A stretch of 64,000 bases of DNA from NCBI GenBank assembly GCA_958510825.1, contig OY294044.1:84490895-84554894 (forward strand). The letters run 5' to 3'. Below the pieces are notes generated by a model. The model was not told where the DNA came from. It ran no database searches and was given only the letters and a program-made list of their open reading frames with translations. This DNA is from Brachypterus glaber (lineage: Eukaryota; Arthropoda; Insecta; Coleoptera; Kateretidae). Below, piece after piece: positions 18,030 to 56,990 of the stretch (position 1 is the first letter of the stretch; every line of letters starts with the position of its first letter). Position numbers and translations under genes: made by a program.

Positions 18030-18440
<411 letters not shown>

Positions 18441-40519: not shown

Positions 40520-40534
40520 AACATTTCTATCAGT
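40520..40534 (+). repeat. 15-bp target-site duplication, left copy
   Basis: AACATTTCTATCAGT, identical to 42,122-42,136 on the other side of the hammerhead array. Confidence 0.85.
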
Positions 40535-40628
40535 AAGGACAGAAATTTTTAATTTTAAACAAAATTATAAAAATATTAATTTATTATTTTTTATTAATTT
40601 ATTATTTTTTATTAATTTATTATTTTTT

Positions 40629-40720
40629 CTTAATCAGCGTGCAGAGTTGACTCTTGGTACTGAAGAGGGCCAGCAGCCCGAAACTGTCAGTCTACCAATA
40701 TCACTCTGTACGATGATTAG
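40629..40720 (+). ncRNA. Type I hammerhead ribozyme, monomer 1
   Basis: A self-cleaving RNA motif. The core reads CTGAAGA (40,660-40,666), stem II GGGC/GCCC with loop CAGCA (40,667-40,679), GAA (40,680-40,682), stem III ACT/AGT with loop GTC (40,683-40,691), and C17 at 40,692, so cleavage is expected after 40,692. Stem I pairs TTGGTA (40,654-40,659) with TACCAA (40,693-40,698). An internal loop follows, then GCAGAG with CTCTGT, and TAATCA with TGATTA further out. All invariant positions (C3, U4, G5, A6, G8, A9, G12, A13, A14, A15.1-U16.1, H17) are present. Only the variable N7 is A instead of U. The 3-bp stem III suggests the dimeric RNA is the better-cleaving form, an inference from known minimal-stem III hammerheads. 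Confidence 0.9.
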
Positions 40721-40982
40721 AAAATAGATTGATGGAATAATAAATTAATATTTTTATAATTTTGTTTAAAATTAAAAATTTCTGTCCTTACTAATTTTAC
40801 GTCTAACCACCCGTTAGTGGTACTATGTGCTTGAGACACACAAGTCTTCAACTTGCTACCATTCAAAGTCTCCAGATAAGGAGAGGTATGAGTAGTTGTC
40901 TACATCTAGAAATAGATGGCGCACAAGTCTACATCAATCTAATGGCTATATTCCTTTTGCGAGTAAAGTCTAAAAACGTTTT

Positions 40983-41074
40983 CTTAATCAGCGTGCAGAG
41001 TTGACTCTTGGTACTGAAGAGGGCCAGCAGCCCGAAACTGTCAGTCCACCAATATCACTCTGTACGATGATTAG
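40983..41074 (+). ncRNA. Type I hammerhead ribozyme, monomer 2
   Basis: Same fold as monomer 1, with the core intact and C17 at 41,046. The first stem I base after the cleavage site is C instead of T (CACCAA), giving one A-C mismatch next to the cleavage site, so activity may be reduced. Confidence 0.85.
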
Positions 41075-41299
41075 AAAATAGATTGATGGAATAATAAATT
41101 AATATTTTTATAATTTTGTTTAAAATTAAAAATTTCTGTCCTTACTAATTTTACGTCTAACCACCCGTTAGTGGTACTATGTGCTTGAGACACACAAGTC
41201 TTCAACTTGCTACCATTCAAAGATAGAAATAGATGGCGCACAAGTCTACATCAATCTAATGGCTATATTCCTTTTGCGAGTAAAGTCTAAAAACGTTTT

Positions 41300-41391
41300 C
41301 TTAATCAGCGTGCAGAGTTGACTCTTGGTACTGAAGAGGGCCAGCAGCCCGAAACTGTCAGTCTACTAATATCGCTCTGTACGATGATTAG
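41300..41391 (+). ncRNA. Type I hammerhead ribozyme, monomer 3
   Basis: Core intact, C17 at 41,363. The stem I strand is TACTAA, giving a G-U wobble that preserves pairing, and CGCTCT replaces CACTCT nearby. The monomer before it lacks 37 bp (317 instead of 354). Confidence 0.88.
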
Positions 41392-41653
41392 AAAATAGAT
41401 TGATGGAATAATAAATTAATATTTTTATAATTTTGTTTAAAATTAAAAATTTCTGTCCTTACTAATTTTACGTCTAACCACCCGTTAGTGGTACTATGTG
41501 CTTGAGACACACAAGTCTTCAAATTGCTACCATTCAAAGTCTCCAGATAAGGAGAGGTATAAGTTGTTGTCTACATCTAGAAATAGATGGCGCACAAGTC
41601 TACATCAATCTAATGGCTATATTCCTTTTGCGAGTAAAGTCTAAAAACGTTTT

Positions 41654-41745
41654 CTTAATCAGCGTGCAGAGTTGACTCTTGGTACTGAAGAGGGCCAGCA
41701 GCCCGAAACTGTCAGTCTACCAATATCACTCTGTACGATGATTAG
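41654..41745 (+). ncRNA. Type I hammerhead ribozyme, monomer 4
   Basis: Identical to monomer 1 across the core, both stem I strands and stem III. C17 is at 41,717. Confidence 0.9.
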
Positions 41746-42007
41746 AAAATAGATTGATGGAATAATAAATTAATATTTTTATAATTTTGTTTAAAATTAA
41801 AAATTTCTGTCCTTACTAATTTTACGTCTAACCACCCGTTAGTGGTACTATGTACTTGAGACACACAAGTCTTCAACTTGCTACCATTCAAAGTCTCCAG
41901 ATAAGGAGAGGTATGAGTAGTTGTCTACATCTAGAAATAGATGGCGCACAAGTCTACATCAATCTAATGGCTATATTCCTTTTGCGAGTAAAGTCTAAAA
42001 ACGTTTT

Positions 42008-42099
42008 CTTAATCAGCGTGCAGAGTTGACTCTTGGTACTGAAGAGGGCCAGCAGCCCGAAACTGTCAGTCTACCAATATCACTCTGTACGATGATTAG
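42008..42099 (+). ncRNA. Type I hammerhead ribozyme, monomer 5
   Basis: Core and stems identical to monomer 1, with C17 at 42,071. The monomer ends about 20 bp past the ribozyme at the 3' junction of the insertion, so the 3' end of the inserted cDNA lies just downstream of a ribozyme. Confidence 0.9.
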
Positions 42100-42121
42100 A
42101 AAATAGATTGATGGAATAATA

Positions 42122-42136
42122 AACATTTCTATCAGT
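42122..42136 (+). repeat. 15-bp target-site duplication, right copy
   Basis: AACATTTCTATCAGT, identical to 40,520-40,534. Confidence 0.85.
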
Positions 42137-44159: not shown

Positions 44160-44262
44160 AATATTATATCTATGTTTCCAATCATCAAATTGACTGATAT
44201 TGGTAGTTTTCGGCTGCTCACTCTTGCCTCGTCAGTTATCTCTGTGGGCTAACTGAAAAAAA
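44160..44262 (-). pseudogene. Decayed hammerhead monomer (stem III lost)
   Basis: On the minus strand: CTGACGA (44,229-44,235), a GGC/GCC stem II with a long loop, GAA, then directly AACTACCAATATC. The stem III/C17 segment is deleted and the 5' stem I strand is shortened, so self-cleavage is not expected. It sits exactly 200 bp from the next copy. Confidence 0.6.
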
Positions 44263-44263
44263 T

Positions 44264-44560
44264 GTTTCAAAATATTTTATAAGATAGATGTATACTTGTG
44301 CGCCATCTATTTCTAGAAGTAGACAACTTTACTTCTCCTCATCTATTATTAAAATATTTCATCAATCTATTTTCTAATCATCGTACAGAGTGATATTGGT
44401 AGACTGACAGTTTCGGGCTACTTGCCCTCTTCGGTACCAAGAGTCAACCCTGTAAGCTGATCGAGAAAATATTTTTCGAGTTTATTCAAGAAATAAATAG
44501 TCATGAGATTGATGTATACTTGTGCGCCATCTATCTAAAGTCTATAAATAGGATCTCTAC
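44264..44560 (-). pseudogene. Decayed hammerhead monomer (U4 to C)
   Basis: This is a diverged minus-strand copy of the 354-bp monomer, including TAGAAATAGATGGCGCACAA and the ribozyme region at 44,375-44,464. TTGGTA/TACCAA, GGGC/GCCC, GAA, ACT/AGT and C17 are preserved. The core reads CCGAAGA instead of CTGAAGA (44,429-44,435), and the invariant U4 change should abolish cleavage. Confidence 0.75.
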
Positions 44561-52389: not shown

Positions 52390-53500
52390 TAAAAGTAAAA
52401 GTAAGTCTTTATTTCATATTATAAGAAATTTGACATAAAAAAAGTACATCAAAATTTTATACAATGAACAAGTCAATAACAATTAAACATCTCTCATTAA
52501 AATATTCATCAATGGAGTAGTATGCCCTTTTTATGAGATTTTTTTTAATTCTATTTTTAAAAATATTTTGAGCCAGTATCTTATATTCTTGGCCCAATTT
52601 ATTATACATATTTGTGCCCCTGCACAGTGGCCCGTTTTGAGTAAGTGTAAGTCGTGACTTCTGAATTGACAACTTATCGTTGTTTCTGGTGTTGTAGTTA
52701 TGGAAACTCTTATTTCTTGATATTTTTTCCTCATTTTTATGAATATAGTTTAAAATATTAAAAATGTAAAGGCTAGGGACTGTCAAAATACCCAACTCAA
52801 TAAATTTTTCCCGACATGTATGATTTTTATTAAGACCCGCCATCACTCTGATTGCCTTTTTTTGCAATGTAAAAATGTCATTAAAATTTGCTCCCATTCC
52901 TAAATGTATACCCAAAAATCTGCAACTTGATACTTGAGGAATAGTCTTATCATCTAATCTGATAAGAATACTATTATTGTTGGTAAAATTTTTGGGGACA
53001 AAACGCATAAACTGCGTCTTAGCCACATTGAGGACAAGTCCATTCTCACTACAATAGTTTTGTATTAATGTGATTACCTGGTTAGCTAAATACAGCAGCT
53101 CTTCCAGGTCCTTCGCTTTTATCAAAATATTTAAATCATCCGCGAACATAATTATTTTAAATATATTTTTGCAATATTTTACAATATCATTCACAAAAAT
53201 CAAAAATAATAGGGGTCCTAATATGGACCCCTGAGGACACCTTTTTTAACTTTTTTAAATTGTGACTTAAAAACTTGCTGGAACCTATCTTCAAGATATG
53301 AGCAAAGCCAATCATTGGCTGGCCCCCTCACTCCGAATACAAATAGTTTTCTTAGTAACAGGGGGTGGTCAATGGTTTCAAAGGCTTTGCTCATATCAAA
53401 CAAAAGGGCCAAGATGAGCTGCTTATCTTCCAAATTTTTTAGCATATATTGTGGCACAATAACAATTTCAGCTGTTTTTAGGTACAGTTTGGGTACTTAA
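52390..53500 (-). pseudogene. LINE reverse transcriptase (jockey/CR1-type), 5'-truncated
   Basis: Non-LTR reverse transcriptase on the minus strand. The first part (53,457-53,218) carries LILALLFDMSKAFETIDHPL, the RT motif with the first catalytic Asp, and then RGPANDWLCSYLEDRFQQV. A one-base loss near 53,237 breaks the conserved PQGSILGPLLF motif, which is readable across the shift. The second part (53,203-52,457) has FADDLNILIKA, the catalytic FADD box, then CRFLGIHL. It passes directly to LQKKAIRVMAGLNKNHTCRE, so roughly 100 residues usually between them are deleted. It ends with the family's C-terminal region (FHNYNTRNNDKL, NGPLCRGTNMYNKL). The 3' end has an (ACTTTT)n-like tail near 52,390-52,410. 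No endonuclease or ORF1 precedes it. Confidence 0.85.
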
Positions 53501-54095: not shown

Positions 54096-54917
54096 TACCT
54101 TATTACGTTTCTGTCCTGCAATAATCGATGCTACACAGCTTGCAACATTCTGCACAATTTTATAAGTCTTTATAATGGAAGAGCACGAAACACGAACTGA
54201 GTTTTTGTGTACGCCATTACAAACTGTATACAGATAAATCAAATTTACAGGCATCTTTTCTATATAAAAGATATACTGGCAGTACCATCTATTACACAGA
54301 GGACCAACTAGCTAGTTAAAGAAGGGGTGGCAATATTAAAAACATGGCAATAATTGGTTCAGAAACCCTATATTATATACCATGGAATAAATTTTATATC
54401 AATAAAATACACGAAGAAAAAGTCTAGGAAACATTACCTTGGTTTCTTGGTGAGCATTTGTTGCTTCTCAGAAAACCTTTTATAAAAACACTAGAAAATT
54501 TAAAATATTAAAAGGTACTTTTATTTAATAGCAATTTTAGTACAAGAACACAATTTTTGCGTAGATTTTTTCTCTGTATAGTTTAGTTTATATTCTCTTA
54601 TAATTATTATTAATATTATTATCTAGGTATTTTGACTAAAAATTTTGGCGGGAAAACAGACCGGTAGACATTTTATTGCGGAAATCATCTTTTTTTGCAT
54701 TAAAATGAAAGCAATAAACATAAAAAAATAAAACAATACTAGGTACTTTTATTTAATATCAATTTTAGTACAAGCAGACAATTTTTTTGTAGATTTTTTC
54801 TCTGTGTAGTTTAGTTTATATGTATTATTGTCATTATTATTATTTTAGATTTTAAGCTTTCACGGCCATTAAGATATAAAGAACTTTCACTTTCGGGTTT
54901 AGAGCTTGTTAATGGAT

Positions 54918-54978
54918 TTTCACTTTCCGACGTTTCGTCTCTTACTACTAGAGACATCTTCAGGGATTAATCTGAAAC
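54918..54978 (-). ncRNA. Hammerhead-like motif of the Penelope-like element, left copy
   Basis: Minus-strand equivalent of the motif at 55,881-55,945: CTGAAGA, an extra T, a GTCTC/GAGAC stem II, GAA and ACGTC. See the right copy for numbering. Confidence 0.55.
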
Positions 54979-55006
54979 TAAGTTTCGAATCAACTTGTGT
55001 CACTAT

Positions 55007-55450
55007 TTATGACGAGTTGTGGTTATTCACCCGTGACGAGGTTTTTCCTATCAAAGACTTCCATATTGCAGGTAAGTGGTAACCAGTGTCCCGATTGATA
55101 TTGTTAGGATGCTTGATGATTTCTATCGATTCCCGTAACTTCCTTGGCATTTTTCTGTTTTCTGTTAATATTTGTTTTGTTTCAGACAAATTGATTTTAT
55201 GACCTGTTTCATGTACATGTTCGGCTACTGCCGATAAGGAAATTTGTTTCTTTCTTATATTGCGCTCATGCTCTTGAAGTCTTGTAGAAATTTTTCTCTT
55301 AGTTTCACCTATGTAAACCGTACCACAGGAGCAGGGTATTTTATATACGCCTTCTGAACTCAGGGGTATTTTGTCTTTTGTTGAAGTCAAACATTGACCT
55401 AATTTTAGGTTGGACCGAAATATAGGCTTAATATTTGACTTCTTCAAACC
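55007..55450 (-). pseudogene. Penelope-like GIY-YIG endonuclease domain, left copy
   Basis: The minus-strand frame reads FGLKKSNIKPIFRSNLKLGQ, then GVYKIPCSCGTVYIGETKRK, STRLQEHERNIRKK, VAEHVHETGHKINL and ESIEIIKHPNNINR, and stops at 55,007-55,009. GVYKIPC plus TVYIGET is the GIY-YIG pair, followed by the conserved Arg and the H-E-H region, with Glu in IEI as candidate metal ligand. The CSCG Cys pair is usual in Penelope endonucleases. Codons upstream of 55,450 on this strand are the antisense of the other copy, so the frame there is not real. The domain looks intact, but the element lacks its reverse transcriptase and start. Confidence 0.85.
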
Positions 55451-55851
55451 AAAAATTAGGTCAATGTTTGACTTCAACAAAAGACAAAATACCCCTGAGT
55501 TCAGAAGGCGTATATAAAATACCATGCTCCTGTAGTACGGTTTACATAGGTGAAACTAAGAGAAAAATTTCTACAAGACTTCAAGAGCATGAGCGCAATA
55601 TAAGAAAGAAACAAATTTCCTTATCGGCAGTAGCCGAACATGTACATGAAACAGGTCATAAAATCAATTTGTCTGAAACAAAACAAATATTAACAGAAAA
55701 CAGAAAAATGCCAAGGAAGATACGGGAATCGATAGAAATCATCAAGCATCCTAACAATATCAATCGGGACACTGGTTACCACTTACCTGCAATATGGAAG
55801 TCTTTGATAGGAAAAACCTCGTCACGGGTGAATAACCACAACTCGTCATAA
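55450..55851 (+). pseudogene. Penelope-like GIY-YIG endonuclease domain, right copy
   Basis: The plus-strand mirror copy begins inside the coding region at KLGQCLTSTKDKIPLSSE, then GVYKIPCSCSTVYIGETKRK, and runs open to the stop at 55,849-55,851. One residue of the CSCG turn is changed to Ser (CSCS), and RKLRES is RKIRES. It is 5'-truncated compared with the left copy and has no start codon of its own family. Confidence 0.85.
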
Positions 55852-55880
55852 ATAGTGACACAAGTTGATTCGAAACTTAG

Positions 55881-55945
55881 TTTCAGATTAATCCCTGAAG
55901 ATGTCTCTAGTAGTAAGAGACGAAACGTCGGAAAGTGAAAATCCA
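55881..55945 (+). ncRNA. Hammerhead-like motif of the Penelope-like element, right copy
   Basis: CTGAAGA (55,895-55,901), one unpaired T, GTCTC/GAGAC stem II with a 9-nt loop (55,903-55,921), GAA (55,922-55,924), ACGT as a 2-bp stem III (55,925-55,928), C17 at 55,929, and stem I GGA with TCC plus TGAAA with TTTCA further out. The core is hammerhead-like, but the T between A9 and stem II departs from consensus. Penelope-like elements are known to carry minimal type I hammerheads, so the identification is likely. Activity is unknown. Confidence 0.6.
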
Positions 55946-56266
55946 TTAACACGGTCTAAACCCGAAAGTGAAAGTTCTTTATATTATTATTATTATTATC
56001 TAGTTATTTTTCCAGCGGAAATCATCTTTTAAAAGCAATAAACTTAAAAAATAATACAATACTAACACAATACTTTCGTTTGGAAAATGGGGAAAATAGG
56101 AATAAATCTTGCTTCCATATATTTTTTTAACTTCACATTAAAAACTATCGCACATAGGGGTATTTGGGCAATCTGGGCAGTCAAAATTATTTTTCAACTT
56201 AATTCGATTTAGAATGTGTTTTCATATTATAGTAAATGATAAAAAAGTAAAAAACCATTTTCATCG

Positions 56267-56990
56267 ATACCGGGTGTCCCATATAAAAGGATCAACCCTT
56301 AATAATTTTTAAACCAAATTTTAAAAAAATCCTAGGGCAGGTCGATTTTTGTTTCAAAAGTCACATTCTTTGATGATATCTCCACCACATCCCAATTATC
56401 CCTCCACCGTGTGGAGGTACCAACTTTGAAATATTAAAAGGTACTATATATTGAGTAATACCATGATTAAAGGGTATTTTAATTCTCTATTTAACGGTGG
56501 ATTGTTTTTGTAAATCGGTCCAGCCATTCTCAAGATTTTTAACCTTAATTTTTTTAAAAGTTCTCCATTATTTTTTAACAGTTTACCATTACATACTTCT
56601 TGACTTTAAAAAATATTATTCCTTGGAGAGTTTGATTTTTTTTCGAAAAGGACATCTTTTAATGTTATCCCCACCCCAACCAAAAAATAATAGGGTGCTT
56701 CGAAAACTTTAAGGATAAATATCTTGAAAATGGCTGAACCGATTTTAAAAAACAATACACCGTTGAATGGAGAATTAAAATACCTTTTAAACGAGGCATT
56801 ACTAAATATATAGTGTCACTTAGAATTTCAAAGTTGGTGCCTCCCCACTATGGTTGGTGGTGAATATATCATCAAAAGATATCCCCCTTGAAACAAAAAA
56901 AAACAAAAATCATATTGTCCGAGGATTTTTTCTAAACAAATTTAGTTTAAAAATTATTGAGGGTTGGACCTTTATATGGGAGACCGAATA
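56267..56990. mobile_element. Foldback element with GGGTGTCCCATAT end, about 0.72 kb
   Basis: CCCATATAAAAGGATCAACC (56,278) is mirrored by GGTTGGACCTTTATATGGG (56,963-56,981). Arms of about 300 bp also share TGATGATATCTCC with its complement and AAGGGTATTTTAATTCTC with its complement. Non-coding. Confidence 0.75.

Follow-up and report, generated by a model that had tools for sequence, protein, structure and literature searches.

Paired internal ends in a hammerhead retrozyme family of the beetle Brachypterus glaber point to integration by Penelope-like machinery

We analysed a 64,000-nucleotide stretch of the genome of the beetle Brachypterus glaber (the window; assembly GCA_958510825.1, contig OY294044.1, G000:C1:84490895-84554894), which carries a tandem array of hammerhead-bearing units, and followed the relatives of this array through the genome (648 Mb, 842 contigs). 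The array is one insertion of a young dispersed family, and it is very probably a non-autonomous metazoan retrozyme that was integrated by the machinery of Penelope-like elements (PLEs). The insertions have a characteristic anatomy with two fixed ends, target-site duplications and a target preference, and the PLE copies of the same genome have the same anatomy. We infer in addition that a PLE protein acts as the helper, that an RNA circle serves as the template and that the hammerhead cleaves. The retrozyme class is already known; the family and its insertion signature are new here.

The window insertion (40520-42136) consists of an inverted and a direct arm enclosed by a 15-bp target-site duplication, and the RNA 3' ends of both arms face outward, at monomer position 163 on the left side and at 115 on the right. 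Monomer position 1 was set at TTAATCAGCG, which places the ribozyme cut at 63|64. The direct arm (40630-42123) is formed by five head-to-tail units of 354, 317, 354, 354 and 115 bp, with spacings of 354, 317, 354 and 354 bp. The parts of the insertion are the following:

40520..40534, no strand: left target-site duplication AACATTTCTATCAGT; its last 3 nt also fit the RNA end, hence the boundary is ambiguous
40532..40588, minus strand: inverted arm, monomer positions 163 to 107 in antisense; its outer end is site B
40574..40634, no strand: 18-bp tandem repeat in 3.4 copies at the inner junction of both arms
40630..40983, plus strand: retrozyme unit 1, 354 bp, identical to the family consensus
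40654..40698, plus strand: type I hammerhead motif 1 (TTGGTA...TACCAA), found by descriptor, cut predicted after 40692
40984..41300, plus strand: retrozyme unit 2, 317 bp, with a deletion of 37 nt
41008..41052, plus strand: hammerhead motif 2, found by descriptor, A.C mismatch at 1.1/2.1, cut predicted after 41046
41301..41654, plus strand: retrozyme unit 3, 354 bp, differing from the consensus at 5 positions
41325..41369, plus strand: hammerhead motif 3, found by descriptor, a single G.U in stem I, cut predicted after 41363
41655..42008, plus strand: retrozyme unit 4, 354 bp, one difference from the consensus, query of the genome search
41679..41723, plus strand: hammerhead motif 4, found by descriptor, cut predicted after 41717
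42009..42123, plus strand: retrozyme unit 5, partial, 115 bp with the whole ribozyme, terminating at site A
42033..42077, plus strand: hammerhead motif 5, found by descriptor, cut predicted after 42071
42122..42136, no strand: right target-site duplication AACATTTCTATCAGT; its first 2 nt also fit the end of unit 5

The first-pass annotation, made from the letters of the window, had started the array at 40535, a coordinate which proved to lie inside the inverted arm; the first direct unit runs from 40630. Its monomers of about 350 bp are found in units 1, 3 and 4 (354 bp each), but unit 2 lacks 37 nt and unit 5 has just 115 nt. The 18-bp repeat suggests that copying stuttered on the AT-rich sequence at site A.

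Unit 4 gave at least 188 matches in the genome. The retrozyme sample consists of the DNA of 38 loci, to which the listed matches belong (39 places, the best-scoring of 440 candidates), and 39 insertion clusters, two of them at L037, were recognized in it. Since the query favours close, full-length copies, this sample represents the youngest part of the family. The 38 loci among these places are dispersed over eight contigs, a monomer identical to the consensus is present at 37 of them (47 such monomers altogether), and substitutions reach about 0.4% per site in the 91 units of at least 250 nt, which come from 33 of the 38 loci. No ends resembling long terminal repeats (LTRs) were seen in the inserts; primer-binding sites (PBS) and polypurine tracts (PPT) were not searched for. 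In the same 91 units the substitutions are about equally frequent in the ribozyme (14/3879) and elsewhere (109/27845). Selection on the ribozyme after insertion was considered and rejected, as the rate in the hammerhead is not clearly lower, and similar rates inside and outside the ribozyme permit no inference on its activity.

The tandem repeats and these substitution counts, in which no conservation after insertion is visible, would also suit an immobile repeat, either ordinary satellite DNA or a tandem duplication of local origin in which the remnant of a hammerhead persists. Such an origin is extremely improbable: near-identical monomers with target-site duplications occur at dispersed loci on eight contigs, and the duplications together with the fixed ends refute it as a full explanation.

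The new finding concerns the positions at which the arms end. Two outward sense-3' ends were found in 31 of the 39 clusters, and in 29 of these one end lies at site A (positions 110-132, GGAATAATAAA) and the other at site B (158-171, TTTCTGTCCTTA), while the combinations A+A and B+B do not occur. Under independent ends the chance of 29 mixed pairs out of 29 is about 2e-9. The two exceptions are L039 (138/119), which is a complex locus, and L030 (325/115). The other eight clusters have a single outward 3' end, which falls on A in four cases, on B in two and on neither in L043 (position 95) and L064 (264; the far side of this locus is truncated in the fetched DNA). Counted over all clusters, A and B account for 66 of 70 outward 3' ends. 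The two sites are about 46 nt apart and lie 52 and about 98 nt downstream of the ribozyme cut; none of the 70 ends is at the cut 63|64, and synthesis therefore begins inside the RNA.

Exact duplications of 11-17 bp enclose 26 of the 29 A+B insertions (the exceptions are L031, L044 and L063), in comparison with 24 of 1049 random boundary pairs; their median length is 13 bp and their guanine-cytosine (GC) content 14% (25 duplications). In the 26 retrozyme insertions with duplications of at least 11 bp, where the stagger is about 13 bp, the DNA beyond the nick on both strands begins with NTT in 24 of 52 cases and with GTT in 15 of 52, against 15.8% and 2.0% in the local flanks. This symmetric preference suggests a symmetric, perhaps dimeric nuclease.

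Inverted arms can also arise during the retrotransposition of a long interspersed nuclear element (LINE) by twin priming, where the LINE protein primes at the 3' end of the RNA, the second strand primes somewhere further upstream, at no fixed position, and an inverted 5' arm is left. Twin priming by L1 leaves inverted arms whose outer ends vary in position. Here, on the contrary, the outer ends are fixed at A or B in 29 of 31 insertions, no end (0/70) falls on the RNA end made by the ribozyme (position 63), the nick preference is equal on both strands, and the PLEs of the genome share the anatomy. On the other side, a fragment of a LINE-type reverse transcriptase is present in the window (RVT_1, E 2.4e-16; 52457-53245, minus strand), and duplications of 11-17 bp together with an inverted arm occur in L1 twin priming too, as described in part in PMC2837659. 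Taken together, we hold a LINE origin of these insertions to be quite improbable.

The integration by PLE machinery is supported by the PLE copies of the same genome, one of which is located in the window:

54833..55997, no strand: Penelope-like insertion, two arms with 3' ends outward, tail at one end only

Its 12-bp duplication is an ATT repeat with ambiguous boundaries, its palindrome is about 97% identical, and either arm contains the hammerhead-like motif CTGAAGATG...GAAACGTC, which we take to be a minimal hammerhead of the PLE kind. Each arm finishes with the end of an open reading frame (ORF), the relatives of which are of GIY-YIG type (75 homologues with conserved columns): PF01541 was matched by four of 32 homologues, one homologue is named GIY-YIG in its source, and the predicted model of the ORF end had its best structural match, a weak one (E = 1.4), in the GIY-YIG domain of UvrC. 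The ORF ends themselves gave no GIY-YIG match in Pfam and NCBIfam, and GIY-YIG is in none of their five weak sequence matches in the PDB. A PLE protein search over 243 kb of genome DNA returned the window copy and no other.

When the 3' part of the PLE was used for a genome search, the best 40 of 367 candidate places were 99-100% identical, and ten of the 40 were fetched. The query-side end is the tail-less one (571); the opposite end lay within the fetched stretch in eight of the ten, and it was always the tailed end (602-612 of the query). The tailed piece of L067 is 27 nt, and in L068 and L075 the tail-less end alone is visible. A further small PLE insertion was noticed at L044 (7948-8127), where about 150 bp between 14-bp duplications TTAGTTAAGTATTT form two outward 3' ends with a hammerhead on one of them. 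In the set with both ends (the eight fetched copies, the window copy and L044) every insertion, ten of ten, combines a tailed with a tail-less outward 3' end and has a duplication of 11-17 bp (median 12), in comparison with 0 of 773 random boundary pairs. NTT stands at 13 of the 20 PLE nick sites (local background 16.3%) and GTT at three of 20. Measured from the hammerhead cut, the PLE ends lie 55 and 86-96 nt downstream and those of the retrozyme 52 and about 98 nt.

These observations can be set beside published work on PLEs. In the experiments of PMC11167929, reverse transcription by a purified PLE protein began at two neighbouring sites within the RNA; the protein cleaved and extended both DNA strands and favoured AT-rich DNA. 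The hammerhead cut is at +26 and the main start at +111-118, that is, 85-92 nt downstream. The tail of genomic copies reflects the two start sites, a feature which the authors of that paper call common and unique to PLEs. PLE copies with direct pseudo-LTRs (pLTRs), an adjacent inverted pLTR, an optional one-sided tail and a duplication are described in PMC3846280. As far as these sources go, the retrozyme resembles PLEs in the two internal starts of reverse transcription, the tail at one end, the inverted arm beside direct repeats, the duplication and the distance from the hammerhead. Its insertions show the Penelope-type features of two adjacent internal starts, priming on both target strands and an AT-rich target. 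It differs from PLEs in its size of 354 nt, in its chance-level similarity to the PLE family of the window and in the lack of any stop-to-stop ORF of 110 amino acids within the array; for want of such an ORF the retrozyme is not itself a PLE, and it is PLE-like only in its integration.

The following course of events is proposed. A transcript with tandem copies would be cut by its own hammerheads, probably in pairs, and the 354-nt pieces would be closed to circles; both the transcription of the array and the 354-nt RNA circles belong to this proposal. The PLE protein would bind the region directly downstream of the ribozyme and cut AT-rich DNA with a stagger of about 13 bp; each target strand would offer its 3' end as a primer for reverse transcription, one at site A and the other at site B. 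One complementary DNA (cDNA) could circle the template more than once and so yield the tandem array, while the other would usually remain short. The two cDNAs would be joined, often by a few shared bases, and the product would be a target-site duplication around an inverted arm and a direct array with RNA 3' ends outward.

The arms are in keeping with such a course. The longer arm is more than one unit long in each of the 29 A+B insertions, a figure to be read with the fact that the full-unit search favours such copies, and the shorter arm stays within one unit in 27 of them. At the inner junction the arms of the 29 insertions overlap by 2-10 bp in 17 cases, by 0-1 bp in two and by 27 bp in one, and a gap of 2-41 bp separates them in nine (counts without control); overlaps of 2-10 bp are as in microhomology joining. 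The B-primed arm halts at position 107, just beyond site A, in the window insertion (40532-40588) and in L055, L059 and L062. A collision with the A-primed cDNA on one template would explain both this stop and the 18-bp stutter. The idea that the short cDNA arm halts at the 5' end made by the ribozyme (position 64) was dropped, as the stops are scattered.

Instead of a circle, the template of the PLE machinery could have been a linear tandem transcript, so that the array would copy a pre-existing one. Sequence variants alternate in the arrays of L044, L041 and L048, and L039 has a period of 856 nt, which would fit a multimeric template or later unequal exchange; besides, unprocessed RNA is the dominant in vitro substrate in PMC11167929. 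Against this stand the many arrays composed of consensus monomers or of monomers with private changes (in L046 all four full units share the variant 249T, which fits one circle), and the 29 A+B insertions without A+A or B+B, which fit a template with a single A and a single B site. A linear template is therefore possible but rather unlikely in our opinion. As for the circle, we lean with some reserve towards a more general model, in which animal retrozymes behave as the short interspersed nuclear elements (SINEs) of PLEs: their circles would mimic the start-site region of PLE RNA, one PLE dimer would load both strand ends on one circle, and one cDNA would roll while the other is blocked early. 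If so, the strict one-A-one-B rule would follow from a single circular template which has each site once. When the unit is folded as a circle, the minimum-energy structure places sites A and B at the edges of two loops, and in the centroid their region is mostly unpaired.

Several points weigh against integration by PLE machinery from a circular template. The ranges of A and B were fixed after inspection of the data, the sample (the best 39 of 440 places, found with a full unit) is biased to close copies and long arms, and the comparison comprises retrozyme and PLE insertions without a LINE control. The PLE query fixes the tail-less end, so that the opposite end alone is informative, and ATT-rich repeats in four of the ten PLE duplications (L066, L067, L070 and the window copy) make their boundaries uncertain. 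Furthermore, the PLE is known here from the ends of ORFs and not from a complete one, and GTT at the nick is commoner in the retrozyme (15/52) than at PLE sites (3/20). BLAST of the monomer against the window PLE gave chance-level similarity only, with none evident around sites A and B; recognition would hence have to be structural, or to proceed via another PLE family. In the in vitro work of PMC11167929 no difference in start site was observed between the strands, and the strict one-A-one-B rule is left unexplained by it. Finally, a linear multimer could take the place of the circle.

With regard to the ribozyme, the first-pass annotation had described five consecutive units, each with CTGAAGA, GGGC/GCCC, GAA, ACT/AGT and C17, and all five were recovered by spacing and by descriptor. 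The core of every unit is TTGGTA-CTGAAGA-GGGC-CAGCA-GCCC-GAA-ACT-GTC-AGT-C-TACCAA or a one-base variant of it, that is, a type I hammerhead with a 3-bp stem III. A check with covariance models failed: Rfam gave no hammerhead match for the window, either at the gathering score or up to E = 10. As Rfam missed the five hammerheads, a descriptor with shuffled controls was used instead, built on what we take to be the hammerhead consensus. On both strands of the whole window it matched these five hammerheads only, and 200 dinucleotide shuffles gave one match in total. RF00163 passes its cut-off at another hammerhead of the genome (L001 1501-1546, G000:C10:30938340-30938386), for which no relation to the retrozyme was seen, and a scan of viral contigs for the ribozyme core gave no match. 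Stem I, which had been called exactly complementary, is so in units 1, 4 and 5, but in unit 2 C replaces T at position 1.1 and produces an A.C mismatch, and in unit 3 one of the pairs is G.U; the outer stem GCAGAG/CTCTGT is likewise not exact, since it contains one G.U.

The 90-nt hairpin of unit 1 is far more stable than its shuffles (z = -6.0). The minimum-free-energy fold is not the three-way junction: in nearest-neighbour calculations, which ignore tertiary contacts, the monomeric three-way fold has -14.8 kcal/mol and an alternative fold with CUGA paired to UCAG has -24.6 kcal/mol, about 10 kcal/mol in favour of the latter. Stem III with its loop is ACUGUCAGU, a palindrome except for the central U; as a monomeric hairpin it is unstable (+2.1 kcal/mol), whereas its intermolecular duplex is stable (-8.3 kcal/mol). 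A weak stem III hairpin and a stable duplex with a second copy make a dimeric ribozyme likelier, and the retrozyme hammerhead probably works as a dimer. The designation as complete type I hammerheads thus stands for the core parts, which are present in five of five, and has to be qualified for the near-palindromic 3-bp stem III. Weak helix III and activity as dimers are known from the axolotl and newt retrozymes (PMC7229834).

It could also be supposed that the hammerhead has no activity, that circles are not formed and that PLEs simply carry the element along in the manner of a SINE. The missing Rfam match and the unfavourable monomeric fold speak for such a supposition; however, the family is young and its consensus has an undamaged catalytic core, the stem III duplex is stable, and dimeric activity with a weak helix III has precedents in the amphibian retrozymes of PMC7229834. 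We judge an inactive hammerhead to be unlikely and presume that it cleaves.

In its general features the family agrees with the metazoan, non-LTR retrozymes (Cervera and de la Pena 2020, PMC7229834), which are likewise dispersed, non-coding and low in GC, have type I hammerheads in tandem units of about 170-400 bp and duplications over 4 bp, and in some cases show a weak helix III and dimeric ribozymes. The assignment to this type in the first-pass annotation is upheld by the type I hammerhead in each monomer, the 354-bp units, the low GC content (35.9%; window 29.9%), the non-coding sequence, the dispersal and the duplications longer than 4 bp. As for the candidate undescribed functional system of that annotation, the family and its insertion signature are new, while the class itself is in print (PMC7229834). 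The hammerhead repeats of newt and axolotl are similar in their tandem units of 330-350 bp, very short stem III and chiefly dimeric activity; their sequence is different, and their insertion ends are not reported in the main text of PMC7229834. Plant LTR retrozymes, as summarized in PMC7229834 and PMC7761336, are also non-autonomous elements with a hammerhead and circular RNA intermediates (which we presume here), but have type III hammerheads, LTRs, PBS, PPT and 4-bp duplications, and Gypsy machinery is presumed for them. Two fixed internal ends in opposite orientation, as found here, are not described for metazoan retrozymes in the main text of PMC7229834, and a literature search covering mainly open papers, without supplements, found no description of a two-site end structure for retrozymes.

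Besides the array, the window contains a more distant relative of it:

44168..44534, minus strand: older diverged relative of the retrozyme, about two shorter units; U4 of the first hammerhead is changed (CCGAAGA), the second hammerhead is degenerate

Elsewhere in the window an imperfect inverted self-complementary stretch of about 0.7 kb with 70% identity (56273-56985) is perhaps a folded-back DNA element, and at 18035-18436 51 AG repeats are followed by three copies of a 102-bp tandem repeat.

SINEs are non-autonomous RNAs which are mobilised by the proteins of another element. The retrozyme differs from them in its hammerhead, its tandem arrays, its two 3' ends and a signature of PLEs rather than LINEs. 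The helper of animal retrozymes has been considered before: PMC7229834 names LINEs or PLEs as movers and regards PLEs as a strong candidate because of their type I hammerheads, tandem occurrence and coexistence with retrozymes; PMC7761336 considers PLEs likely, yet the repeats had no motif pointing to the partner; PMC8969392 states that retrozymes 'may rely on PLEs'; and a 2024 review (PMC11722881) leaves both LINE and PLE helpers standing. In PMC7229834, PMC7761336 and PMC11722881 the helper is thus unproven. The paired A/B ends, which can be counted, form a direct footprint of PLE type in a family that is young and has identical copies. The retrozyme shares this footprint with the PLEs of the same genome, and it gives direct support to the earlier suspicion of PLEs. 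The paired ends reduce the question of the helper to one RNA and one protein, and they offer a test of circles as templates.

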